NCBI GenBank assembly: GCA_027563935.2
Contig: CM050446.2
Coordinates: 123,892,499-123,956,498 of the forward strand
Source: Costus lasius
Taxonomy: Eukaryota > Streptophyta > Magnoliopsida > Zingiberales > Costaceae
Direction of reading: 5' to 3'
Length of the DNA: 64,000 bases
Shown: one piece after another, positions 9,408-28,316 of the stretch
Numbering within the stretch: position 1 is the stretch's first letter
Layout of the letters: the number at the start of each line of letters is the position of its first letter
The notes under the pieces: generated by a model
What the model was told of the DNA's origin: nothing
The model's input: the letters and a program-made list of their open reading frames with translations, nothing else
Database searches by the model: none
Position numbers and translations under genes: made by a program

Positions 9408-10190
9408 CGCCGCAGGGCCGGGTAAATTTCAAAAATTAAATTATCCATCACGCCGCGAGGCCGGATAAATTTCAAAATTAAATTATCCATCACGCCGCGA
9501 GGCCGGATAAATTTCAAAATTAAATTATCCATCACGCCGCGAGGCCGGATAAATTCTGAATCAAATTATCCATCAACGCCGCAAGGCCGTATGAATTCCA
9601 AGTTAAATTATCCAGCACGCCGCGAGGCCGGATAAATTCCGAATTAAATTATCCATCAACGCCGCAAGGCCGGATGAATTCCAAGTTAAATTATCGAGCA
9701 CGCCGCGAGGCCGGATAAATTCCGAATTAAATTATCCATCAACGCCGCAAGGCCGGATGAATTCCAAGTCAAATTATCCAGCACGCCGCAAGGCCGGATA
9801 AATTCCGAATTAAATTATCCATCAACGCCGCAAGGCCGGATAAATTCCGAATCAAATTATTCAGCACGCCGCGAGGCCGGATAAATTCCGAATTAAATTA
9901 TCCATCAACGCCGCAAGGCCGGATAAATTCCGAATCAAATTATCCATCACGCCGCAAGGCCGGATAAATTCCGAATTAAATTATCCATCAACGCTACAAG
10001 GTCGGATAAATTTCAAGAATCAAATTATCCATCAACGCCGCAAGGTCGGATAAGTTCCGAATTAAATTATCCATCACGCCGTGAGGCCGGATAAATTTCA
10101 AAATTAAATTATCCATCACGCCGCGGAGCCGGATAAATTTCAAAAATTAAATTATCCGATACGTTGTAAGGCTGAATGACCCCCCAAACC
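9408..10190 (+). repeat. Minisatellite of about 18 units, about 43 bp each
   Basis: Units follow AATTATCCATCA(A)CGCCGC, then (A/G)AGGCCGGATAAATT, then CCGAATTA. I count 18-19 matches to the CGCCGC(A/G)AGGCCGG core. From about unit 4 to 14 two variants alternate: CCATCAACGCCGCAAGG and CAGCACGCCGCGAGG. This makes a higher-order dimer of about 86 bp. Outer units are more uniform or more degraded. Tandem blocks inside Tat-like gypsy elements are known, and the next PPT/LTR lies 800 bp downstream. Confidence 0.9.
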
Positions 10191-11006: not shown

Positions 11007-12543
11007 GAGGACAAGCAAAATTCTAAGTTTAGGGTATTTTGATGCGTTGTATTTACACCACATTTTTGCCTATATTTTAGATTATATTTTGGGCTTATTT
11101 GCATGATTTTGTGCTTATTTCAGTGTTTTTACTTCACTTGGTACAGAATCTTTACTTTTTTTGGTTTTTATGAAAATATAGGAAAAATCACCCAAAAATG
11201 AAGGATTTCACGGTTTTAAAGTCAAAGCATGATTCTCGAGGAAATTACGAGGTCGCACATCAAATTTGGAGTCAAAATAGTGAAGATCGCAACTTTCACG
11301 GCCTTGGCTGTAATTATTGGGCCGGCAGTAATTCTGCATTCGAACGGGTGGAAAAACGGCTAAGTGTTAGAATGAACAAAAACTTTCATGACTGAAGTCG
11401 TGAATCTATCACGGTCCGTGAATAATTCTGTGACTTAAGTGTTGTACACACAGAGACATTTACGGCCGTGGCCGTAAACTCGTTACGGACCGTGAAAACG
11501 TCCGCGCGATGAGTTTTTCACTCGATTCTCTAACGATTCGAACCGGATTTGAACCAAACTTTGCAGAAACATTCCTTGAAGGGTTCCGAACCAGTCTAAC
11601 TATAAAAGATGAGATTTTTCGAGGAATAAAGAGGCTTTTTGGGACAAAGAACATTGGCGGCGGCGATAAGGGACGAAATTCGAATTTGGAGCGGATTCTG
11701 TCGAGATTTCACGAAAAAGATCAGTTTGATTACTTCATCTTCATCGTCAGACCGAGAAGAAGCACATTAAATTGTTGTTCTAGTGATTTCTTAGCAATTT
11801 TTATGAGATTCCTACTTATTCATCATAAAAACATGTTTTCCTTTAAGAACATGAGTGAGTAGATTTTAGTTTCGGGATTTAGGGCTTAGCCCGCTGACAA
11901 TTATGAATTAATCTGTATTCACGCTCATTTGTATAAGAATTTGTTATCATGATTTGATTAAAGTTGTGCTTATCTCGTAATTTACCTTGGCCACGTAACA
12001 TTGCGCTTTAGACGTTACGAGAAGGACCGAGAGGTGAATCGCAATGCCTGATCTATTTTAATCGAACCTTCAAATCCGATCACGAGAGTAGTTCGGATTT
12101 GTCTGAAGGATTTAACCCACTTTTCATAGAGCTTAATGGGTTTGGTTAAGTTAACTATCACGAGAGTATGGAGTTAACCTAATTAAACACCGTATTACGC
12201 TCCGAGAGGAGGTGATATGTACATTAGGAAGATATGTACATTAGGAAGAGTTCCTTTCATGATTTATATTTCCTATTGATTGAGTTATTTTTATAAGATT
12301 TATAATTGTCAGTGTGATGAAACCTAGAGATCCCGATGCTCTTCAAATTTGAATCCCTTAAAAGCTGTTTCTGAATTGTTCGTACTTAGAAGTCTAATAC
12401 AACCTCTTATTTAGTTTTGCCTAGATTCAAACAATTCAAAAAGTTAGTACTTAACTGCGTAGTCCTCCTTGGGAATGATAATCTTTTTATTACTTTGATA
12501 AATCCATGCACTTGCGGATACCTATCAGCGATTAACACACAAA
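11007..12543 (+). mobile_element. PPT and LTR of a second Tat-like gypsy element
   Basis: TTGAGGACAAGCAAAATTCT followed by AAGTTTAGGGTATTT leads into TGATGCGTTGTATTTACACC at 11040, the standard PPT/LTR junction of this lineage. The LTR has a TATA-like TATAAAAGATG near 11600 and palindromic CACGG boxes upstream of it. Its right end is probably near ATTAACACA (about 12543), shortly before GCCCCGGCGC. No coding domain of this element is seen in the window. Confidence 0.55.
11290..11500. repeat. Palindromic CACGG/ACGGCC boxes in the second LTR
   Basis: Boxes near 11296 (CACGGCCTTGGCTGTAA), 11384 (CATGACTGAAGTCGTG plus CACGGTCCGTGAA) and 11461 (ACGGCCGTGGCCGTAA plus ACGGACCGTGAAA). The architecture matches the boxes of the first element: paired palindromes 75-90 bases apart, just upstream of the presumed TATA box. 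The sequence is different. Confidence 0.6.
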
Positions 12544-12649
12544 CTGGGAGACTACGCCCCGGCGCTAAGCACTGACGTACGCATCCTCCAAACAGTGTGG
12601 GCTAACGTCTATATCTCGAATGCAACAGATTTACCACAAACCTCCTTCT

Positions 12650-12720
12650 GATACCACTTGTTGGGATCTGCCTCAGCTCTGATAGCACTTGTTAGGATCA
12701 ACCTCAGCTCTGATACCACT
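12650..12720 (-). repeat. Primer binding site repeated three times at 31 bp
   Basis: GATACCACTTGTTGGGATC, GATAGCACTTGTTAGGATC and GATACCACTTGTTGGGAG start at 12650, 12681 and 12712. On the minus strand each is an initiator tRNA-Met-type primer binding site (TGGTATCAGAGC) next to the terminal LTR bases. Confidence 0.75.
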
Positions 12721-13336
12721 TGTTGGGAGAGAAGGCGCAAAAACCCTATTGTTAGATTTAAAACCAAATAACCACCGGCAATAATAACACTCAGAAATGG
12801 CAGTGAAATAAAATACCAAACAACTAGACAAGGAACACCAGGGATTTTTACGTGGAAAACCTCCCCAATTTGAGGAGGAAAAACCACGGGATCTAAGTCC
12901 GCTCAAACTTTCTACTAAATCAGTTTAATGGGTATTACAACTCTTCCTAGAACATCTAGGAGCATAACCACATCATCAAGTATAAACTTGGATCTCAGAC
13001 AATCATCAACATAAACTTGAAAGCAATACAAGAAGAGGAGAAGAGTTCAGATTTCACCAAGATAATCAGTTTCTGTTATAGGCTAACTGCGAGAGATAGA
13101 GACCTCAGGTCGACGATCCGACCGTTCAGATTGAAAGGCTCTGAGTCACGAACCTTCTCTTAAAATTTAGGCCCGATCCAACGGTGAATCTCTTTCCGGA
13201 GGCTGATTTACGCAGACTGTCCTAAGTTCATAACTTGTCGCCGAAGCTTCTTCTTCTTTCTCTCTCTCTTTCACGTCTGCTCTCACGCATGTACTGTGGC
13301 ATGCACCCGTACACCCCTAATACCTAATGATAACAA
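12721..13336 (-). mobile_element. LTR of a minus-strand retrotransposon
   Basis: It starts TGTTGGGAGAG beside the minus-strand primer binding site at 12709-12720, so it would be the 5' LTR of a minus-strand element. The internal part on the left is cut off after about 70 bp. The right end is uncertain; TAATGATAACAACA near 13336 is a candidate terminus. No protein domains are associated with it. Confidence 0.45.
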
Positions 13337-13371
13337 CATATGTCAAATATACACTAACGTATCCATGAAAA

Positions 13372-13850
13372 AGGTGTGTCCACCATAATCTGATATCGTG
13401 GACAGTGTGTCCACGATCTTCATGGACAGGAAATCCACGATCTTCGTGGACATGAAATTTACAATCTTCTGCAGAAAATCCACGATCTTCATGGACAGGA
13501 AATCCACGATCTTTGTGGACAGGAAATCCATGATCTTCGTGGACAGAAAATCCACGATCTTCGTGGACAGAAAATCCACGATCTTCGTGTCTACGATCTT
13601 ATGTAGAAAATCCACGATCGTCATGGACAGGAAATCCACGATCTTTGTGGACAGGAAATGCACGATCTTCATGGACAGGAAATCCACGATGACTGCAGTG
13701 TGTCCACCATAATCTGGGGTGTGTCCACCATAGTTGAGGTGTGTCCACTATAATCTGGGGTGTGTCCACCATAGTTGAGGTGTGTCCACCATAATCTGGG
13801 GTGTGTCCACCATAATCTGACATCGTGGACAGTGTGTCCACGATCTTCTG
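13372..13850. repeat. Compound minisatellite (24-bp and 22-bp units)
   Basis: The left part (13400-13695) is built from a unit of about 24 bp, GAAATCCACGATCTTCGTGG plus ACAG. The right part (13700-13815) has a unit of about 22 bp, GTGTGTCCACCATAATCTGG or its GTTGAGGT variant. The same block (CATCGTGGACAGTGTGTCC) occurs at both ends (about 13396 and 13823). Frames stay open on both strands because unit lengths are near multiples of three; I do not regard them as genes. Confidence 0.85.
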
Positions 13851-13934
13851 ACATCATCCACGATGGAGCCATTCTCCACGTGGGCATAAGCTGAGTCATC
13901 CTCCACATAGGAGGGAAACTCACCCAATACTCGC

Positions 13935-14097
13935 TTCTTAGCTGATTTGATTCGGTTGCATTTATATATATTGTGTTATTGATTACACCGGTGAAGTTTA
14001 GGGATCACGTAAATATCATACAATCAATTAACTCTAGTGGTGGTTGCAAATATTAGTGTCATTGAATTTATTTAAGAGAATAAAAATGTAGAACTAG
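13935..14097 (-). pseudogene. Duplicated 3' flank of the NOL9 gene (left piece)
   Basis: This block aligns with 42345-42515 downstream of the intact NOL9 gene: TGCATTTATATATATTGTGT, GTGAAGTTTAGGGATCA, GTGGTGGTTGCAAAT and GAATAAAAATG all match. The alignment stops at 14097, where an LTR begins, and resumes at 20337 after the element. Confidence 0.75.
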
Positions 14098-14694
14098 TGA
14101 TGTAGGGGCTTTGGTGGAAATGTGCATTTCCACCAATGCCTCTAGAGGTCAAAATGCAGGTCAAAATCCAGCTTGTCAAAGGCTGGGAGTCAATGGGGTC
14201 CCATCCCAGTGACTAGGGTGAAGAACTGGTTGAGCTAGGGAATTAAAAGAGGGCAACAAGAGAAGAAAGGAGAAGTTTTTTTGACAAGAAAGAAAATTCG
14301 CGAAGCTGTGCTCTAGCCGCTTCTTTCCTATTCAATGCTTGTATCATGAGCACGGTTCCGAGTGGTGGCACTTTCGATCTCTATCATTTGTATTCTAGCT
14401 CCGACTTAGATGGTGACACTTCTAATATTTCCTATATTTTTGTGATTACATGGGTTTCTCTTGTGTAACTTGTATTTTCACCTAGCATTATGTTTCCTTC
14501 TTAATCAATTAATCCTGCATCTCCTTATTGCTGGTAGTTGGGATTTTAGTTATGGGAAGTATGTGGATTTAAATGCATCAAAGCAAGTTGGATTTTTGCC
14601 CTTTCACTTCTTTTATTCTTGCAAATTTTGGCTGTCATTGTGTCCTGAGTTCTAGTACCTAGACACATAAATTATGCTAGGAAGATTTGTATCA
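14098..14694 (+). mobile_element. 5' LTR of the gene-capturing element
   Basis: 597 bp with TG..CA ends. It has a perfect 10-bp palindrome arm pair GGTGGAAATG/CATTTCCACC at 14113-14134 that is missing from the 3' LTR. The segments AGCTTGTCAAAGGCTGGGAG, GCTTGTATCATGAGC and GCTGTCATTGTGTCCTG recur in the 3' LTR. Confidence 0.85.
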
Positions 14695-14696
14695 TG

Positions 14697-14708
14697 TGGC
14701 ATCAGAGC
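14697..14708 (+). other. Primer binding site (initiator tRNA-Met type)
   Basis: TGGCATCAGAGC starts two bases after the 5' LTR end. It differs by one base from TGGTATCAGAGC, the complement of the plant initiator tRNA-Met 3' end used by many plant LTR elements. Confidence 0.8.
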
Positions 14709-14778
14709 TTGCCGATCATAGCTGGATGCTATTATAGGTGACCTTATATTGAAGCTAAGCACCATCGCTTAAAAAATA

Positions 14779-15180
14779 TTGGTGAAATTGAAGTCACTGA
14801 GCTATGGAGACAACTCCACCAATTGCAAGAGCAAATCGCACTACTACAATGCACAAAAGATATGCGATCTCAATAAACTTATACACAGAAAAGATCACGA
14901 CAAAATTGAAGATATACCAGAATTTGAGGGCAGATCCCAATCCGATGAATTTCTCATTTGGATGCATACTGTAGAGAAAATTTTTGATTTCAGGGATGTT
15001 TCTTAAGTTTGTAAGGTAAAATTGGTTATTCTAAAGTTGAAGAAGTAGGCTAGACTATGGTGGGAAAAATCTAAAAAAGCAACACAGTCGTGATAGAAAG
15101 CATCATATTCAAACATAGAATAAGATGAAGAAAGAGCTAATATGGAGGTTCTTACCTGATAATTATAAGTATGACTCCCA
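14779..15180 (+). pseudogene. Ty3/gypsy gag remnant
   Basis: The conserved gag opening reads IPEFEGRSQSDEFLIWMHTV, then EKIFDFRDVS, a stop, VKLVILKLKK, another stop, and ARLWWEKSKK. This is the DFxG...FLDWL...KVKL...A..WW pattern of plant gypsy (chromovirus-like) gag. At least two internal stops and further damage follow. It fixes the identity of the element as gypsy and the direction as plus. Confidence 0.75.
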
Positions 15181-15305
15181 CTTGCAACGCCAAAACAACT
15201 TAACAGTGGAAGTTTCCAGCCATAATATTTACTTGAAGAAGAAATATAAAGATGAAGGTGCTAGTACAAAGAATGAAATACGATAAAAATATTTGGGTTT
15301 CCAGT

Positions 15306-15660
15306 CCCTGCCAGATCATCTGAACTTAGCTTTCCTGATGATGTTGACCTAACTCACAAGACTAAGAAGCAAGTGATGACAAAATTAATCTCAAAGAACA
15401 AATTGTACAAGGCTCAAAAGGCAAAGGAACATGACACTGAAATTAAAAATTTAGATGAAGACTTTGGTGCACCAACTCAAACTGGTGCCTTATGTTCTTT
15501 TATCTCATCCAAGCTAGGGCTCTATCGAACAAGGATACTAATTGTGAGTCCAACGAAAAATTATTTGCTTTATGGATTAAGAAATCTGGTGCTAAACCTG
15601 ATCCGTATGACAAGCTTATCAAAGAGTTGGGTTCTGATAGGAGAGCTCATGCAATAGGAC
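15306..15660 (+). pseudogene. NOP14: Captured fragment of the nucleolar protein NOP14
   Basis: The translation contains LNLAFPDDVDLTHKTKKQVM, ISKNKLYKAQKAKEHD, LDEDFGAPTQTGALCSF and, after a frameshift, KKSGAKPDPYDKLIKELGSD then RRAHA. These match the central region of plant NOP14 (KTKKxVM..., KxYKAQKAKE, LDxDFxxLxQTxALxS, KPDxYDKLxKE, DxRAxxxDRT), a small-subunit ribosome biogenesis factor. The order of these motifs is conserved and no intron interrupts them, which suggests an mRNA origin. Frameshifts make it non-functional. It lies between the gag remnant and an unidentified captured segment. Confidence 0.75.
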
Positions 15661-15664
15661 CAAA

Positions 15665-16245
15665 ACACTAGAGGATGACGACAAGGACAAGAGAGAGCAT
15701 GGAATAGACAAAGACTTGGATGAGGCATCTTCATATTATAACAGTGGAACTGACCAAGTTATGTTTTTTTACGGAGAAAAGCCCAATGTGACATGCAATG
15801 GTGAGTTAGTGAAAGAAGATGTAGAATCCTATTTCATTGCAAAAACTATCATCTTGGATGCGGAATTAAGAGATGTCATGGCAAGTAATGATGTTCTGGC
15901 ATTTCCAAAATTGGTTCCTCTATTAGAAAATTTTAATACATTGATTCAAGTAAAAACTCCAATCTCTGTCATATCTAGTAAGGAAGAAATTTTATGTAGC
16001 TCTAATAAATCTAAGTGGCTTGATGAAGGAACCAGTGATGTTAATTTTAGTAATACCTCCAATTCACAAGTACCTAATATCATCATGAAGCAATCTTCTT
16101 AAGAAGAGGCAAAACTAGCTTACAATTTATCTTGTTTACAGAAGGCAGCTACATTAGAAGATAATCAAGACGTATCACAAATTTCACAGTTATCTTCAAT
16201 ATCATGGAGATTGACAAAGCCTTATCTAAATCCTTTGGTGTTTAA
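15665..16245 (+). pseudogene. Captured protein-like segment I, unidentified
   Basis: An open stretch of 128 codons (15716-16102) reads GELVKEDVESYFIAKTIILD, AELRDVMASNDVLAFPKLVP and LLENFNTLIQVKTPISVISS, a protein-like composition with mixed hydrophobic and charged residues. It ends at TAA (16100-16102), and similar text (EEAKLAYNLSCLQKAATLED) continues after the stop. I do not recognise the parent. Neighbours on both sides are host gene fragments, so this is likely another one. Confidence 0.5.
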
Positions 16246-16250
16246 TAGCA

Positions 16251-17078
16251 GTGCGACTCCTTTCCCATGTATGTGAACCTTCACAAATGCTGCTTGTTGA
16301 AGGATTTGAAATAGCAAATTCAGATAGCCCTGAAGAGTATGAGAAATTATATCATAATCTAGCCGTTGAGGCCCTTGTTAATATCTCCATGGTTCAAGAT
16401 GTTGAGACTAAAAATTTAGTCAATCAGAAAATGAGGGCCATCATTTACATTGCTCTTACTGATGAAACATGCGATGAGCCAAATATTACAATGAATAAGG
16501 TAGTCAAATCAAACCTCAGGGTGGGGCATGGGGATGTTGTCTTAATTCGTCAATGCCAAGGTGTCATGTATGGAAAGCGTGTTCATATTTTGTTAATTGA
16601 TGACATAATTGAAGGAGTTATAGGAAGCCTCTTTGATGCCTACTTGAAACCATATATTTGGGGAAGGTTTAGAGAGGCTGGTCAATTTTGCAACATTATT
16701 TTGGACTCTCTAGAGTTTGCAATTTTACCTAATGGCTTGCCCAGGAGCTTCATAATTGACAATAAACTACATGAGATATTGTCTTGTCGGAGGGCCCTTC
16801 CTGGTCATTGGACTCTTGATGCTATTACGATTGCAAGGACACAGAAACAGTTTGCTATTTTTCTTCTTTATGGAGGTTGTGTTGCAATCCCTCCTAATCT
16901 TTGTTCTCTATTGGATAGTGCATCTATTCCTAAGGACAATATAGGAGAGGCAGCGCTTTTGTTAATTTTTCTACTGAGGAAGTTTTCTCTTAAGAGGATT
17001 GGTTGGGATCCATCCATCATTGATTATATGACTTTTGTGCTGTCTATATTTGGACAGCTACATATTCTTCAAGGGTGA
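16251..17078 (+). CDS. Chimeric ORF: unknown piece + CDC48 N-domain fragment + unknown piece
   Basis: A 275-codon frame begins ATG at 16251 and ends TGA at 17076-17078. Residues about 1-63 ([40 protein letters not shown]) are unidentified. Residues about 66-138 ([25 protein letters not shown]...[33 protein letters not shown]) match the N domain of the AAA+ ATPase CDC48/p97. The CDC48 hallmarks [21 protein letters not shown] and FDAYLKPY are all visible with several substitutions. Residues 139-275 ([40 protein letters not shown]) are a third unidentified piece. The pieces are fused in frame without introns. The parental start codon is absent and there is no obvious promoter besides the upstream LTR. 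It may be an expressed chimera or a fortuitously open relic. Confidence 0.55.
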
Positions 17079-17427
17079 GCTTATTTTTATATACATGGAG
17101 ATGGTGAATGAGAATGTTGATAAACCAATGTTAGGATATTTTGGAGTTGCAGGAGATGTTCCTCCAGTTTTGGCATGCACAGGAGATGACAATCCTAAGC
17201 AATTCATCCATGATGGTGAAATCTTGATTGAGAATATTAAGGAATTTGTTGAAGGATTTATTTTTGACAAGAAAATAGGAATTGATCAGCCAAAATGTAT
17301 CGAAAATGCAAAGAATTTGGTGGCCAACATTGCTATGGGTACTGACAAAGTAAAATTAAATGATGTTGGAGTTTGTGTTGATTCAATGGTTAATGCTGCT
17401 GAGATAGAAGGAGCTAAAAAGTTGTAG
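17060..17427 (+). pseudogene. Captured PDI fragment fused to CCT-beta fragment
   Basis: The frame (ATG at 17035, stop at 17425-17427) first encodes [40 protein letters not shown] and FIHDGEILIENIKEFVEGFI. This matches the b' domain of plant protein disulfide isomerase (FKGKLIFVYVEMDNEDVGKP, YFGVTGDxPKVLAYTGND). From about 17268 it changes to KKIGIDQPKCIENAKNLVAN, IAMGTDKVKL and CVDSMVNAAEIEGAKK, matching the CCT-beta (TCP-1 beta) chaperonin subunit (QPKRIENAxILVANTAMDTDKVK...RVDSM...AEIEGAEK). The two are joined in frame. PDI belongs to the ER lumen and CCT to the cytosol, so the fusion has no evident biological logic. Confidence 0.7.
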
Positions 17428-17645
17428 AAAATCATTACTCATGAAATCGACTATTTTGTTAACCACGAGTTGATGTATATTTTTTTCGAAGAACTTGGTG
17501 ACTGGTGGAGAGATTGCCTCATTTTTTGTCAACCCAGAGTCTATTAAGCCTAAACACTGCAAGCTCATTGAGGAAACAATGATTAACAAGCATAAATTAA
17601 TACACTTTTCTAGCATTGAAATAGGCCAAGCGATGAACAATTTAA
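17428..17645 (+). pseudogene. Captured CCT-beta fragment, continued, with a 20-codon deletion
   Basis: After the stop at 17427 the CCT-beta homology continues ([20 protein letters not shown] ending EEL), then jumps by about 20 codons and shifts frame to [40 protein letters not shown]. The family has [40 protein letters not shown] at this point. The shared bases CTT at the junction suggest a microhomology jump. Homology fades at about 17640, where LTR sequence begins. Confidence 0.75.
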
Positions 17646-20336
17646 GAGTCCTAGCTCGAGGTCAAAATCCAGCTTGTCAAATGCTGGGAGTCAATGAGTC
17701 CCATCCCAGTGACTAGGATGAAGAACTGGCTGAGCTAGAGAATTAAAAGTGGGCAGCAAGAGAACAAGGGGGAAGTTTTTTGGACAAGAAAGAAAATTCA
17801 TGAAGCGGTGCCCTAGCTTCTTCTTTTTTTTGGACAAGAAAGAAAATTCATGAAGCGGTGCCCTAGCTTCTTCTTTCCTACTCAATGCTTGTATCCTGAG
17901 CTCGGCTCTAGGTGGTGGCACTTTTGGTTTTTCCTACTCAATGCTTGTATCCTGAGCTCGGCTCTAGGTGGTGGCACTTTTGGTTTCTATCGTCTGTATC
18001 CTAGCTACGGCTTAGGTGGTGACACTCCTAACATTTCATGTATTTTTGTGATTATGTGGGTTTTTCTAATGGGGTAGTTTGCATATTCGTTAGTTTCTAT
18101 TTTGATCCTAACAAGTCTTCAAATCAGTTGAAGGTGATTTTTTTTGTGTCTTACTCTCATCTCAAGAACTTGTGTAGCTTGTATTTTCACCTAACGTTAT
18201 GTGAAGTTTTGTTGCCATGTTTGAACTAATGAATCCACGTTAAGAGAGTTTGGAGTTTATATCTTCTGAATTATTATTTCATAGTATTCCAATGGTGGAT
18301 TTCCATTTTCTATACCGAGGCTCCTTATGTTAGAATAAGGCAAACGCTGGAGAACAAGTTATGTATACGAGTGTTTTCCAAATCTTAACTTGATCTATTA
18401 AGCAAATGGATTTACAAGCCTTATAAAGAGATGTTAAACATCTACCTAGTAAATATGCAATGCTAAATACAAAGTATTATCAAATACGAGGCATTCCTCG
18501 TTTAAACTTTCTAAGCCTTTAAATTCCCTAATTTATTTCAGGTTTATCTTTCAACATTCCCTCTTAAACCTGAAATTCAAAAACAAAATTACATGTCCAT
18601 CTTATATATCTTCTTCAGTCTTCAAAATTAACCCGAGCTTCTCTAGATGGGGTTTTTCTTCTATCTTGCATCCTATCAAATTTGCTAATGCATAGTTACT
18701 ATTAAATCCATAAGTTTCAGGAGTGTTGCTGAATTCTTCCAGCTTTACTTTTGAGTGAGAAATAGTCATCTATCTTCGCTTCTTTTTTTCACTTTGACAA
18801 GTGCTTGACGTGCTTTCTCTCATTCCAATTCGACCTCCTCCTTTTTTGCATCGAGATAGTTCTGTCTTGTTTTGTTAATTTCCTCTATTATGCTTGCAAG
18901 TTTTTTTTCTTTGTAATATTCAAAAATTCTTTATTCGTACCGAGTGGTCATAAAATCAGTTTTAATTTTATACTTCAACATTCTCTTTTTTCGTGAAGTT
19001 TCAATAATAGTATCAAAATATTTGATTTTTAACAAGACTTTTACAAGCTTTTTTTTTAGTCAATATTTTTATCTGAATAAGTGAATTTTGACTTTGGATT
19101 TGACCTTGACTTATGAATTTACACATTTTCTTTTTTCTCTCGATCTTTTTATTCTTCTCTTTCTTTATTTCTTTCTTTCTCTGTCTGACAATTAATTCTC
19201 ACCCAATTTCTTCTTCCCGATTTCATTTCTCAATTCTCACTTAATTTCTCTTCTTCTCAATTCTCAATTCTCACTTAATTTCTCTTCTTCTCAATTCTCA
19301 CCCAATTTCTCTTCTTCCTAATTTTTGTTTTTCTCAATTCTCACCCAATTTTTCTTCTTCTTCCCAATTTCTTATCTCAATTCTCTCAATTTTATGACAG
19401 CTGTTTTACATGTTGCTTTCCTTTTTCATTACTCAATTTCCCTTAATTACTTTTCTCTCATATCAATTATAGAATTCTCTCTCTCCTCTTAGAGTATTTT
19501 CCTCTCGACTTTCTTACCTTGTAGCCTTGCGAGTCGTCTTCCTCCTCTCGACGATAACTTTTTTCTGATGGAAGGTGGCTCTCGGCGATGATCAACAACT
19601 CTAGTGAAGATCTTTCTCCTTTTGTGAGATTTTTTCTCTTTCTTCAATAGGTATGGTAGCATACTTCGATTTTTTTGGTAGCTAACTTTTTTTTTATCAC
19701 GGTTTTCTTCTAACCGGACTCCTCCTTATTTGTCACGGTCACTCCTTGACTAGACTTCTCCAAGCTTCACTATAGCTTGTCTGTGCTGTAGCTTACTTCT
19801 ATGCACGACGATAATCTATCGCCAGCAATTGTCTACTGCTCCACGCACAACAATAATCGACCGTCGGCGGTTTATTTTCATCCTCTCTTCGAATGCACTC
19901 TATTTTCCCTTCTTCAAACAGCATTGCCCCCCTAGCTTTGATACCACTTTGTTAGAATAAGGCAAACGTTGGAGAACAAGTTATGTATATAAGTGTTTTC
20001 TAAATCTTAACATAATCTATTAAGCAAATGGATTTATAAACCTTATATAGAAATGTTAAGCATCTCTTAAAGGTTCTTCCTAATAAATATGCAATACTAA
20101 ATACAAAATATTATCAAATACAAGAAATTCCTCATTTAAACTTTCTAGGCCTTTAAATTCCCTAATTAATTTCAGATTTATCTTTCAACACCTTAATCAA
20201 TTAATCCTACATCTTCTTGTTGCTGATAGTTGGATTCTTGCCATCCACTTTTTTTTTCTTATAAATTTTAGTTGTCATTGTGTCCTGGGTTCTATAGTGC
20301 CGAGACATGTAAATGGTGCTGGGAAGATTTGTATCA
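17645..20336 (+). mobile_element. 3' LTR of the gene-capturing element, rearranged
   Basis: It matches the 5' LTR from its about 60th base onward; the start, including the palindrome, is missing. Two short tandem duplications are specific to this copy: GGACAAGAAAGAAAATTCAT (17781 and 17831) and CTACTCAATGCTTGTATCCT (17878 and 17934). Extra segments of about 100 and 120 bp follow near 18063 and 18205. A small LTR element is inserted at 18328-20190. The final part (20191-20336) matches the end of the 5' LTR. Confidence 0.75.
18328..20190 (-). mobile_element. Small non-coding LTR element (TRIM/LARD-like), minus strand
   Basis: LTRs of 229 bp (18328-18556) and 241 bp (19950-20190) both begin TGTTAGAATAAGGCAAACG and end TTATCTTTCAACA. 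Both flanks have the perfect 5-bp duplication CCTTA (18323-18327 and 20191-20195). The primer binding site on the minus strand, TGGTATCAAAGC, lies next to the right LTR (about 19936-19947). The polypurine tract TTAAGAGGGAA lies next to the left LTR (18557-18567). The 1.4 kb interior is pyrimidine-rich with repeats of TCTTCTCAATTCTCACC and no coding capacity, so it depends on another element for mobility. Confidence 0.9.
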
Positions 20337-21765
20337 GCTGGAGAAATGGGAAGGCACAAGCACAGCTCCATTCACGGAAATATTTATATGAGCCCTAGAC
20401 TATCGATTCTTTAATTTCTTTTTTTCAAAGAATATTGACCTTTATGCTGTGTTTAGTAGGAAAGAAATAAAGTTAAAAGGAAAAGAAAGTAAGAAAAAAG
20501 GGAAAATAAAAAAGAAAGAAAATAATAAAATTTTTCATCATTATGTTTATTTAGAAGGAAAGAAAATTAGAAAGATTGATAAACATTCTCTTTTTTTTTA
20601 TTTTTATGTCGATGACGACGATGAGAGGCCATGGTAAAATAGCGGCGACGAGAGATGAGAGGTGATGGTGAAGAGGCGATGACAACGACGATAATGATGA
20701 CAACAATGGCGATGGCGATACAACGATAGATATGACGACGGTGATGACAACGTTGATGAAGAAGGTTGCAAGAAAAGCACGAGAAGAAGAATAGATATAA
20801 CAAAGAAAATGGTGAAAATAGGTATGAGAAGGACAAATCTAACTTTCTCCCAATTTGGACGAAAAGCAAATAGGGCTATTTCCCTCTTACTTTCCTTCCA
20901 TTTTCCTTTTTTATTTCCATATGTCTTACTAAATACGATTTTATAGCTTTCCTTCTAACTTTCTATCCATTCTCTCCTCCTTTCCTTCTTACTAAACACG
21001 CTATTAATGAACATCATGGAAAATATCCTAAAGTATGTACATTAAGAAAAGCTAAACAGAAACTTAAAATGCACAAACAGCAAGCGGACGGGAGTAGTTA
21101 CCTGCTGGGATTTCAAAAAATCCATGCAGAAGGAGACGTACCATGTGTAAAATGTGAAATGGAACAGGTGTAGTGACAAAAACGTAATTGGATCAATACC
21201 AAGACAAAATGCAAACTACCACAAGAACAGCGGACTAAAAGTGAAGCACGCAAAATGGAGCTTCCTTCATTTAGCTGATTTCCAGAATTCCTGGGGTATT
21301 GTAACAGCAAACTTCACTAGCAGCAATTATACAAATTTCCTCGCGGATAGGAAACCCACACAACCACGGAATGCAGGAAAGTTAGATCACCTCACCACCT
21401 GAGCCTGCAGTCAGGATACAGGCGATAGAACTCAGAATCGAGATCGCCAATCTCTTGCATCGTAACAGCGATAAGCAGGTCGGTTTAAAGTACCACTTTC
21501 CACACACCAAGGTATAACAGAATCGGGCTTTTCATGTACATCACAACTTACTGCCAAGCCAACAACTGTAGCATTCAAACTATTGTAACATTTCGCAGCT
21601 TGGAACCTACATATTACAAGAACAAGGGGTTAATGACTATGAAACAGTGAAATTTCAAGATTTTCTGACATTTAATTGTTGTTGCATGACTTAATAAGCT
21701 CGTGGCTCAAGGTTTTATCAACAGGCACCTGCTGTAAATAGTTGGTGCAATTGAAATTAAAGCTC
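20337..21765 (-). pseudogene. NOL9: Truncated NOL9 pseudogene (last exons and flank)
   Basis: Aligned to the intact gene, this block has the 3' flank (20337-20444 and 21004-21100), the counterpart of exon 8 (about 21102-21220) with an 11-bp deletion, a shortened intron, the counterpart of exon 7 (about 21494-21606) and part of the next intron (to about 21765). Matching phrases include TGTAAAATGTGAAATGGAAC, ACACACCAAGGTATA, CAACAACTGTAGCATTCAAA and AACAAGGGGTTAAT. Frameshifts abolish coding. Introns are present, so this is a DNA-level duplicate rather than a retrocopy. The gypsy-type element separates it from its left piece. Confidence 0.8.
20445..21003. mobile_element. Tourist/PIF-Harbinger-like MITE
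   Basis: 559 bp with terminal inverted repeats TGCTGTGTTTAGTA and TAGCGTGTTTAGTA (right end read in reverse) and TTA on both flanks (20442-20444 and 21004-21006). It interrupts the NOL9 pseudogene flank: the intact gene region reads straight through from AATATTGACCTT to ATCATGGAAAATATCCTA. Its interior has simple GATGACGACG-type repeats. Confidence 0.8.
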
Positions 21766-22311
21766 GACACATGAGCCTCAAGCTACTTATGAATAGTACT
21801 GATTCACAGTTCCCCAAATGCACCATTATTTATGTATACAAAGAAATACTAAGTTTCTACCGTTAAAATTAACATGATTCATAGGAGCTAAGCGGTCAAA
21901 ACTACTATTCCGAGCATGACCGATAGGAGCACGTCCCTGACTTTGTCCTCAGCCTATTCGATACAGCCACCTGGTTACTTGTCTCGACAAATCGAAAACC
22001 CCCACACGCCTGGCAAAGACCGCTGCATGAACCAACTCTAAAGAACATATGGGTATATCACTTGAGACTCGACTGCGATGCAGCGCATGTACAAGTCCAG
22101 TACACCGGAATGAATACAAAATCACACGTAGGCAGTAACTCACACATGTGCGGAGGACAACGTCATGCAGGACGGCGGGCATACGCCCAAATCCCGAATA
22201 GACCGCTCTCAAGCCATCAAGCTCACTCACTCACCAACGCGGACATCTCGCAATTCGGAGCACTCAACCAGCACATGCTGGACAGCACAAGATAGAGTGG
22301 AGAATGACAAA
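21766..22311. other. Intergenic, duplicated segment continues or ends
   Basis: No gene supported. The minus strand is open over 21949-22230, but composition gives no family. It leads into the hAT-like element at 22320. Confidence 0.35.
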
Positions 22312-22319
22312 TCAGCCGG

Positions 22320-22799
22320 TAGGGGTGGCAACGGGTCGGGTACCCGCGTTGCCACCCAAAACCTAAACCTGACCCGAATTCAAAACCCGATACCCGAACC
22401 CGGGTTAAATATCTTATTGTGCAACCCGAACCCAGGTCGGGTATTTAATCGGGTACCCGCGGGTACCCGATTAAATAAAATAAAAATTATTTATTATTTT
22501 ATATTTTATAAAATATAATTTAAAAATTATAATAATAATAAATATATTTATATAATAATAATTTTTATTATTTTATATTTTACTAATAATAAATATTTAT
22601 ATAATAGTTATTTTATTATTATTTATATTTTATTAAAACTATATATATTTATTTATTTATTATTGAAATCGGGTATCGGGTACTAGGTACCCGCATAACT
22701 AAACCCGAACCCGTCCCGTTTAGATAAACGTGTACCCGAACCCAATGTAAACGCGTCGGGTCAGGTACCCGCCCCCGACGGGTAATTTTGCCAGCCCTA
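22320..22799. mobile_element. hAT-like MITE rich in GGGTACCCG
   Basis: 480 bp with ends TAGGGGTGGCAAC and (reverse) TAGGGCTGGCAAA, and the 8-bp flanks TCAGCCGG and TCAGCCAG (22312-22319, 22800-22807), one mismatch. GGGTACCCG/CGGGT motifs fill both ends around an AT-rich core. This is the common plant non-autonomous hAT layout. Confidence 0.85.
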
Positions 22800-26160: not shown

Positions 26161-27235
26161 TAATGTATCAGAGAATCTTTTTTGCCGCATTTAGATGCTC
26201 TGAAGTAGGAGTCTCCATGTAACGACTTATAAGCCCAACACCAAAGCATATGTCAGGACTTGTACAAGTAAGATACCTCAAACTCCCAACTAGACTTTTG
26301 AAGGAGTTATATCTATCTTTTTACTGTCATCAAACTTTGACAGTTTAACATTGCACTCAACCGGGGTACTCAATGAATTGCAATTGCTCAGATTGAACTT
26401 TTTCAACACTTCTTTTGCATAGTGCTCTTATGAGATGAATATTCCCTCATTTTTTTGATGCACCTCCATTCCCAAATAGTTTGACATCAGTCCTAGATCA
26501 GTCATCTCAAACTCAAGATTAATCTTCCTTTTCAAGTCCTCGAACATCTGAGGATTGTTGCCAGTAAATATTAAATCATCTACATATAGGCACATAATCA
26601 TGATTCCATCATTATTTGCCTTTAGATATAAAGCATATTCATACGGGCACTTCTTAAAACCATTCTTTTGAAAGTAATCATCAATTCTGCAATTTCAGGA
26701 TCTAGGTGCTTGCTTCAAACCATATAAGACTTTTGTTAATTGAAGGACTTTTCCTTCGTGCCCTTTTACTACATAGCCTTGAGGTTGTTTAATGTATACC
26801 TCCTCTTCAAAGTATCCATTTAAAAAGGCTGACTTTACATCTCTAGAAAATTTCCTATTTTTGTTGAGTTGCCATAGAGATAATTAGCCTTATAGTTTCC
26901 AAACGGGCAACAGGAGCGAATACTTCATCATAGTCAATACCTTGACGCTGCTTATAGCCTTTTGCGACAAGTCTAGCTTTGTACCTTTCTATCTCTCCGT
27001 TCAAATTTTTCTTTACTTTGTAAACCCATTTGACTCCAATGGGAGTATGCCCTTTTGGGAGATTGGCTAGCTCCCATGTCTTGTTCTTCTCAATAGCCTT
27101 TATCTCTTCATTCATGGCTTTTCTCCATCTCTTATCCTTAGAGGCTTCAGTGTAATTGACTGATTCTGTCTCTGCAAATAGACAAATGTATGTGACATCA
27201 TCAATTCTTACTGACTGCATATTCATAGATGTCAA
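26160..27235 (-). pseudogene. Copia reverse transcriptase, broken
   Basis: The best open part (26855-27235) encodes [80 protein letters not shown] and [11 protein letters not shown]. Downstream follow [40 protein letters not shown] (catalytic YVDD) and EMTDLGLMSNYLGMEV. Frameshifts near 26860 and 26700 and later stops make it inactive. Confidence 0.85.
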
Positions 27236-28316
27236 CCAGTCTTCTTATGCGAGGATGTAATCGCCCTGAACTTTCTTTAGATGAGCTAGGTTCACTTCTA
27301 CTGTGGGAATGCATTCTTCCTGAGCTCTCTCTAGATGAACTAGGTTCATCATGCGATGGAGATGTTGGTAGAGTACTGACTCCAGAGGTGTCATCCTTTT
27401 CCCCATTTTCTAAGAAAGAAAATAAACCTTGATCGTCTTCTTGCACTTGCCAATTCCAGTTTGACTCTTCGTCAAAATCAACATCTCTGCTTATAAAAAC
27501 CTTCTCAGTGCTCAGATTATAGAGTTTGTAACCTTTTGTTCTTGAGTCATAGCCAACAAATATGCACTTTCTACTTTTGTCATCTAGCTTGACACGATTG
27601 CCATCAAGAACATGAGCATAAGCAGTACTACCAAAAACTTTTAAGTGTGATACAGAAGGTCGTTTACCACACCAAGCTTCAAGAGGGGTTTTTTGACTAA
27701 GAGATCTTGTTTCGCAACGATTCAAGATATAGACTGCACAATCCACAGCTTGTGCCCATAATTCTTTTGGCATCTTCTTTGTCTTCATCATGCTCTGTGC
27801 CATATTTAAAATAGTGCGATTCTTCCTTTCTGCAATTCTATTTTGTTGTGGAGATCCTGGAACTGTTAAGAATCGTCGAATTCTGGCTTTGTTACAGAAA
27901 TCTTGAAATTGTCTGGATGTGAACTCTCCTCCTCTATCTGATCTTATGGCTTGAATTTTATATCCCTTCTCATTTTCAACAAGTGCTTTGAAGTTCTGAA
28001 AATATTTGAATACTTATGACTTTTCTTTCAGGAAGTATACCCAAGTCATTCTACTATAGTCATCAATAAATAGAAGGAAATATTTATTCATGCCAAAAGA
28101 ATTTGGAGAGATCGGCCCACACACATCTATGTGTATTAATTGGAGTGGTCTTGAAGCTCTTGATTCAGATTCTTTTGGAAAGCTTTTCCTCAACTGCTTT
28201 CCCAACATACAACCTTCACACACATTGTCAAGTTGTTTTATATAAGGTAATCCTTTTACCATTCTTTCTTGTGCCATTTTCTTTAAACTGCCAAAATTCA
28301 AATGGCCAAGTCTCAA
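27201..28316 (-). pseudogene. Copia integrase with GAG pre-integrase, broken
   Basis: It begins RLGHLNFGSLKKMAQ and CEGCMLGKQLRKSFPKES (HHCC zinc-binding part), then LIHIDVCGPISPNSFGMNKY, FLLFIDDYSRMTWVYFLKEK (first catalytic Asp region). After a break come the SDxGGEF and PQQN motifs around 27870-27950, then LWAQAVDCAVYILNRCETRS, TPLEAWCGKRPSVSHLKVFG and KCIFVGYDSRTKGYKLYN. A stop at about 28012 and frame changes inactivate it. Confidence 0.85.

Follow-up and report, generated by a model that had tools for sequence, protein, structure and literature searches.

How a single long terminal repeat (LTR) retrotransposon came to hold pieces of several host genes is the question raised by a locus of Costus lasius, which was analyzed within a stretch of 64,000 nucleotides (the window; C1:123892499-123956498 of a genome of 1.28 Gb in 269 contigs, within which all genome comparisons were made). 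The element in question, an old LTR retrotransposon that is non-autonomous and has host gene pieces in place of its inner part, occupies positions 14098-20336 of the window on the + strand. Its cargo is a mosaic of seven same-strand segments in the window, and of eight in fuller sister copies, from six host genes, and all of the identified pieces lie in the sense orientation of the element. Serial template switching had been proposed in a preliminary description of this DNA, and template switching on spliced mRNAs is still the best account, whether in one event or in several. We put the probability at roughly 85% that the mosaic was made from host mRNAs by template switching in a non-autonomous LTR retrotransposon and then spread.

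Gene pieces and their absent introns

The first piece, from NOP14 mRNA, lies at 15253-15675 (+), carries one frameshift, and matches four parental exons from 15280; its 5' joint falls at about 15216-15253, and a NOP14 retrocopy elsewhere in the genome (L044) aligns from 15253. It is followed by a piece of an unnamed gene (15711-16359, +; parent L035, C2:8.11M), which skips 679 nt of the parental coding sequence at 16034-16041, and by a first CCT-beta segment (16360-16430, +; about residues 78-115; parent L051, C1:25.25M), which has a coding skip of ~51 nt. A segment for the N-domain of CDC48 (16426-16657, +) crosses the next exon junction by ~9 nt and leads into a segment of a tetratricopeptide repeat (TPR) gene (16658-17066, +; parents L033 and L052, C8:3.92M) with a coding skip of 63 to 66 nt. 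Beyond a deletion joint (17064-17068), at which sister copies keep ~0.7 kb more cargo, come a PDI segment (17064-17247, +; parent L049, C8:0.895M) and a last CCT-beta segment (17247-17642, +; segment 3, about residues 216-372), which has a ~62-nt deletion at 17494 that is absent from the three copies keeping this region. The CCT-beta residue numbers are approximate and follow the human protein.

The fragments of NOP14, CDC48, PDI, and CCT-beta named in the preliminary description are real, as judged by domain matches together with parent genes. The CDC48 segment matches Arabidopsis CDC48A at 2e-29, and CCT-beta is matched at 3e-13 and 9e-12 and also by TIGR02341. The two Pfam matches of the NOP14 piece (1.9e-5 and 0.014) are collinear and below the curated cut-off, and its identity is backed by the parent gene. 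PDI is weak from the window alone (Thioredoxin_6 at 4.7e-4 in Pfam, and a PDB search of the window piece without a match) but firm through its parent gene and through the copy at C4:86.4M (2.2e-12). Three further protein-like pieces, for which the preliminary description had no name, were traced to the C2:8.11M gene, the C8:3.92M TPR gene, and CCT-beta (16360-16430). Protein database searches with the unknown pieces and with NOP14 gave no match, a negative that means little because NOP14, a real piece, was missed too. The longest open frame of the cargo has 282 codons and was equalled by none of 500 dinucleotide shuffles, and the same holds for the open stretches of 15711-16359 and 16658-17066. 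In a neutral simulation, a stop-free frame of 282 codons had a chance of 2.4% at a divergence (K) of 0.2 and of 16% at a K of 0.079; this frame was chosen as the longest, and no selection is therefore inferred from it. The structure predicted for 16665-17075 is poor, with a predicted local distance difference test (pLDDT) score of 53.9.

The parents were found by searching the genome with the cargo DNA, with only the best candidates scored, so that other relatives may exist. The six lie scattered over C1, C2, C6, and C8 and not in the order of the pieces; a shared order is what the preliminary description had named as refuting its claim. The NOP14 parent (L050, C2:161.90M) matches in four blocks separated by gaps of 901, 704, and 723 bp. 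The CDC48 parent is at C6:105.56M to C6:105.57M (L037, L053), with relatives at C6:105.54M and C4:68.38M, and CCT-beta has parents at C1:25.25M and C8:20.08M. The gene at C8:3.92M encodes tetratricopeptide repeats (TPR_19, 1.2e-7) and is presumably NPG1-like, and the parent at C2:8.11M is a long open frame with no significant protein family.

Alignment to the parental exons bears out the intronless state of the pieces, with 13 GT-AG introns of five parents absent from the cargo: three of NOP14, four of PDI, four of CCT-beta, and one each of CDC48 and the TPR gene. Nine of the 13 sites lie in the window copy (three in NOP14, two in CCT-beta, two in PDI, and one each in CDC48 and the TPR gene) and the rest only in sisters; for PDI, two sites are inside the window piece and four are in the C4:86.4M copy, and for CCT-beta, two are in an N-terminal segment kept by sister copies, one is in the first segment, and one is just before residue 216. 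At least 25 nt of matching exon stands on each side of 10 of the absent introns, in the window or in a sister copy, whereas the other three rest on a short, one-sided overhang (6 nt at CCT-beta residue 216, ~9 nt in CDC48, and ~16 nt of the upstream exon in the TPR gene); neither the CDC48 nor the TPR overhang was significant in BLAST by itself. Three further gaps, the 679 nt of the C2:8.11M gene, the 63 to 66 nt of the TPR gene, and the ~51 nt of CCT-beta, are parental coding sequence and not introns, and these coding skips sit at short direct repeats. An intron was considered for the 679-nt gap and rejected, since one of its frames is free of stops and the gap falls within the long open frame of its parent. 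To judge by these alignments, the cargo pieces look copied from spliced mRNAs of six host genes.

Capture at the DNA level, by a Pack-MULE (MULE, Mutator-like element), a CACTA element, or a Helitron that landed in the LTR element or was overrun by it, would have precedent, since in 22 Mb of maize, gene fragments were reported in 187 Helitrons, 20 LTR elements, 9 MULEs, and 5 CACTA elements (PMC2773423). The 13 absent introns speak against it, as does a search for inverted arms of at least 20 bp (seed of 11) in 12500-22500, which at these settings found two pairs, neither flanking the cargo in the manner of Pack-MULE terminal inverted repeats. Helitron cargo keeps introns, and their absence here argues against a Helitron origin. 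Together with the arrangement of the sister copies described below, these observations leave DNA-level capture extremely improbable.

Sister copies and shared joints

Other copies with the same inner junctions had been named as something to look for, and four further, independent insertions of the cargo were found, at C6:17.44M, C4:86.4M, C4:22.03M, and C2:31.56M, with 5' flanks that differ in the loci compared. A locus at C222:1.71M aligns with the window from the LTR to NOP14 only. The copy at C6:17.29M (L013) is an inverted twin of that at C6:17.44M (L012), 99.98% identical over 9.5 kb, and is not independent; the two are ~144 kb apart, which indicates a very recent duplication or an assembly artifact. 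The copy at C1:123.774M (L009) was rejected as a separate insertion: its outer flanks on both sides are those of the window locus, of which it is a segmental duplicate. L009 lies ~132 kb from the window locus and, compared with window positions 13930-21716, is 91 to 95% identical in its outer parts, with deletions of its own and an insertion of ~1.5 kb in the element.

Eight joints were tested with 90-nt probes in these copies and in nine parent loci (the parent relatives L039, L041, and L043 fall outside this test). Five of them are spanned in all four copies, namely, NOP14/C2 gene, the C2-gene skip, C2 gene/CCT-beta, CCT-beta/CDC48, and CDC48/TPR gene; the gag/NOP14 joint is spanned in three of the four and at C222, PDI/CCT-beta in three, and CCT-beta/native 3' end in two. 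None of the eight is spanned in the nine parent loci, in the NOP14 retrocopy, or in L019, a more distant relative. The presence of the same joints in sister copies elsewhere means that the mosaic spread as a family, and the argument for a single origin rests on this sharing.

The sisters also reveal what the window has lost. Between the TPR and PDI pieces, C4:22.03M has 1.41 kb and C4:86.4M 1.52 kb more than the window, and because ~0.8 kb of the extra C4:86.4M sequence is a common repeat, the window falls short by ~0.7 kb of cargo. The lost part comprises the end of the TPR piece, CCT-beta at about residues 13-58, and further PDI exons; at C6:17.44M, one frame of 172 residues matches CCT-beta (4.9e-8) and then PDI (4e-6). 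The family order is thus gag, NOP14, C2:8.11M gene, CCT-beta 78-115, CDC48, TPR gene, CCT-beta 13-58, PDI, CCT-beta 216-372, and native 3' end. CCT-beta occurs at three places that do not follow its own residue order, an arrangement that fits repeated template switching on spliced mRNAs.

Marks of retrotransposition are present in the sisters. Among the three with both ends read, two have a perfect 5-bp target-site duplication (TSD), CAAGG at C2:31.56M and AAAAT at C4:22.03M, and that at C4:86.4M is imperfect (CTTTT/CCTTT). Two copies (L011 and L016) continue past the cargo into native 3' sequence and then into the polypurine tract AGGGGAGTT, which stands directly before the TGATG of the 3' LTR. 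This succession and the gag/NOP14 joint common to three of four copies are further points against capture at the DNA level.

The LTR element could instead have been an ordinary one into which chimeric retrogenes, produced by template jumps of the polymerase of a long interspersed nuclear element (LINE), were inserted and then carried. LINE-made chimeric retrogenes have been reported (PMC2104539), and L044/L045 (C1:121.46M), a NOP14 copy that has no introns and does not belong to the element family, is in keeping with such activity. No A-tail lies between or after the pieces (no A-run of at least 7 in 15280-17660 of the window copy, which was the copy scanned), the search for pol gave none, and gag and the native 3' end bracket the cargo, all of which make a LINE origin very unlikely. 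L044/L045 had been a candidate element copy until trees placed it with the NOP14 gene; it spans two parental NOP14 exon joints, is broken by an insertion of ~3 kb, and is probably an independent retrocopy.

Structure of the element and its surroundings

The limits of the element in the preliminary description hold, as do the LTR ends and the primer binding site, except that the window 3' LTR has lost its TG end. The 5' LTR (14098-14694, +; 597 bp) runs from TGATG to TATCA and is followed by the primer binding site TGGCATCAGAGC (14697-14708, +), which we take to be the complement of the initiator-Met tRNA with one mismatch; variants of this site are TGGTATCAGAG in L012, L017, and L019 and TGGTATCAAAG in L015. 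The TGATG start at 14098 is matched in five of seven other loci (L010, L014, L016, L017, and L018), whereas L012 has TGATA and the LTR of L019 is unlike. An LTR start at 14155, from which alone the 3' LTR and two copies align, was rejected, since copies show TGATG at 14098 and the window 3' LTR is deleted there.

A gag remnant follows (14773-15252, +; limits approximate), with many stops and frame changes. The claim of a gag holds for the presence of a remnant region but not for a domain match in the window, in which a Pfam search gave none, as was the case for L012 and L019; the gag region of the C2:31.56M copy (L010) matches Retrotrans_gag (PF03732) at 8.7e-4, below the curated cut-off. The gag stretch is ordinary, being equalled by 77 of 500 dinucleotide shuffles. 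No polymerase, integrase, or protease family was found in six frames of 15277-17657 at E values up to 0.5, and the element is non-autonomous, with no intact gag-pol. The gypsy-type label of the preliminary description is at most tentative, since the element shows no pol in which an integrase downstream of the reverse transcriptase would mark Ty3/gypsy.

Comparison with L011 and L016 places the native 3' end, and then a GAGG deletion joint, at 17643-17661 (+). The 3' LTR is split into a first part (17658-18327, +) and a last part (20191-20336, +; end TATCA) by a nested LTR element on the - strand (18328-20190; 1,863 bp), which has terminal repeats of ~229 and 241 bp that differ by a K of 0.098, a minus-strand primer site, and the TSD CCTTA on both sides. 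This nested element is short and has no long open frame, and L009 keeps only one of its repeats (a solo LTR). The 5' and 3' LTRs of the outer element are 86 to 87% identical, with a Kimura two-parameter (K2P) distance of 0.159 over 491 sites, or 0.149 over 447 sites with another block choice. The first part of the 3' LTR holds two adjoining tandem duplications (50 and 56 bp; 17776-17986), which are likely much younger than the element because they are perfect inside an otherwise old LTR. Two viral-contig searches with LTR patterns gave no exact match. Elsewhere in the window are a Copia-type remnant (26855-27803, -; RVT_2 at 1.1e-25, SH3_retrovirus at 8.2e-33) and minisatellite arrays at 9408-10157 (42/83-bp units) and 13396-13819 (24-bp and 21/41-bp units).

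Assembly of the mosaic and comparison with known systems

Divergence between the paired LTRs is 0.149 (K) in the window, 0.129 in the C2 copy, 0.149 at C4:86.4M, and 0.070 at C4:22.03M (only 105 sites). In the cargo, copies differ from one another by 0.03 to 0.20 and from their parents by 0.10 to 0.30. Copies and parent side separate with a support of 0.99 to 1.0 in five of nine pieces (two of NOP14, CDC48, and two of CCT-beta), the split being testable only with two or more parent-side sequences, which these five have. Amino acid decay in CDC48, with 49 of 70 core residues kept, corresponds to a K near 0.18 (range, ~0.11 to 0.27), compared with 0.074 per LTR lineage. For NOP14, CDC48, and CCT-beta, the trees and distances clearly point to capture before spread. 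The shared joints show that TPR and PDI, too, had become part of the mosaic by the time it spread; for these two, spread may have come soon after capture.

The account proposed here begins with an element that would have retained the LTRs, the primer site, some of gag, and the native 3' end, its pol region having been replaced by a mosaic of spliced mRNAs. A helper element would have provided the virus-like particle for reverse transcription, with the polymerase leaving the element RNA near its 3' end and copying, in one or several rounds, CCT-beta, PDI, CCT-beta, the TPR gene, CDC48, CCT-beta, the unnamed gene, and NOP14. It is envisaged to have jumped at short matching stretches and to have returned to the element RNA in gag; the chimera, with the ends needed for transposition, would then have spread to at least five sites before decaying. 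The packaging of host mRNA, the helper, the jumping polymerase, and the number of rounds are parts of this account that we infer. Short homology is present at the skips and joints. Homology of a few nucleotides fits end-joining equally, and a break in the element could thus have been patched with cDNA fragments as filler DNA instead of by template switching. For random ligation, it is unlikely that all seven window segments, and all eight in the fuller copies, would be in the sense orientation, which leaves filler DNA only a slim chance.

A number of observations weigh against assembly by template switching, or against parts of that account. Nothing on polymerase or packaging can be read from sequence alone, and short-homology joints also arise by end-joining of cDNA. 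In the window copy, the polypurine tract is gone and the 3' LTR is short of its first ~50 nt, as if by deletion between two GAGG stretches, and as a result of this loss the copy is unlikely to have moved again. The target duplication that the preliminary description reported for the window is partial and not clean: the flanks (left, 14093-14097, ACTAG; right, 20337-20341, GCTGG) match at three of five positions, or at four of five with the left side taken from the duplicated locus L009 (flanks ACTGG/GCCGG), and perfect duplications occur only in the two sisters noted above. For the other four of the nine pieces (two of the C2 gene, TPR, and PDI), a single parent sequence was compared. In the C4:22.03M copy, TPR is at 0.171 to its parent versus 0.154 to 0.172 to the other copies and PDI is at 0.099 versus 0.088 to 0.117. 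Mean divergence from the parent, calculated on short pieces and small samples, extends from ~0.125 (PDI) to 0.26 (the last CCT-beta piece), a range that leans toward several capture rounds, and L019 hints that CCT-beta came first.

L019 (C1:36.58M), whose own search covered 40 of 1823 candidates, resembles the window element in its gag region (77%). It contains a START-domain piece (4.7e-9) and CCT-beta (Cpn60_TCP1 at 3e-9), in which about residues 78-130 are joined to residue 216 onward and the CCT-beta skip of the family is absent; no match to CDC48, TPR, or PDI was found at their joints. To judge by this arrangement, L019 may represent an earlier state of the CCT-beta capture or a second capture. 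With its START-domain piece and CCT-beta beside a similar gag, L019 positions 700-1650 form a second multigene mosaic. The likeness of one L019 piece to a nicotinate phosphoribosyltransferase was not confirmed.

Within the template-switching account, a stepwise history, in which CCT-beta was captured first and the other pieces were added in separate rounds, is slightly favored. It is consistent with L019, which has a START-domain piece in place of CDC48, TPR, and PDI matches; with PDI being nearest to its parent and the last CCT-beta piece furthest; and with some TPR and PDI copies being about as near to the parent as to one another. The divergence range rests on pieces of about 130 to 390 nt, and the CCT-beta match of L019 to the window amounts to 85 and 25 nt, too few to decide. 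The placement of CCT-beta residues 13-58 after residues 78-115 also counts against a simple stepwise history, since it makes one CCT-beta insert later split by others insufficient. Assembly of the whole mosaic in one or two rounds would require eight or nine hops among six co-packaged mRNAs, with CCT-beta revisited at three non-collinear places, and we regard it as possible but rather unlikely. If it is true, the element would be a fossil record of host mRNAs inside a plant virus-like particle, made by a polymerase that switches far more often than a single retrogene would reveal.

LTR elements can gather many host genes, and here every segment can be set beside its parent gene, its exon joints, and its sister copies within a single genome, so that serial switching, capture order, and spread can be tested by sequence. 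For annotation, there is a risk that the NOP14, CDC48, PDI, and CCT-beta fragments are taken for genes, and small RNAs might act on the parent genes.

The closest known system is maize Bs1, which the preliminary description gave as the classic one-gene case but which is an LTR element with segments of three host genes (PMC13317346), exons only (PMC4717578). The present element resembles it in its multigene, exon-only, sense cargo, with six genes and 13 absent introns, and differs in having six genes in eight segments, one gene being present thrice and out of order, compared with three genes in Bs1. Bs1 is reported to be transcribed and translated, whereas the Costus element is known as a sequence only. 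In soybean, the terminal-repeat retrotransposon in miniature (TRIM) GmaRetroS15 carries exon-only fragments of three genes and has 5-bp TSDs and copies made after capture (PMC4717578, Gao et al. 2016); it is one of two TRIMs with exons from more than two genes (PMC4717578). Gene-carrying TRIMs measure 1,172 to 1,449 bp, whereas the present family is several kilobases long and has a gag remnant. Pack-MULEs and Helitrons likewise carry one or more host gene fragments (PMC2773423), and Pack-MULEs contain exons and introns (PMC4717578), in contrast to the intronless cargo here. Genes captured by LTR elements number 672 in rice, 1,343 in sorghum, and 424 in maize (PMC3726574); no mosaic of the present size was noted in the passages compared from PMC3726574 and PMC2773423, and a search of the open-access literature, for the most part at the level of listings and without supplementary tables, brought up no LTR element whose source genes exceed three. 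Exon-only multigene capture by LTR elements is thus already known, with three genes each, and the present case is larger.

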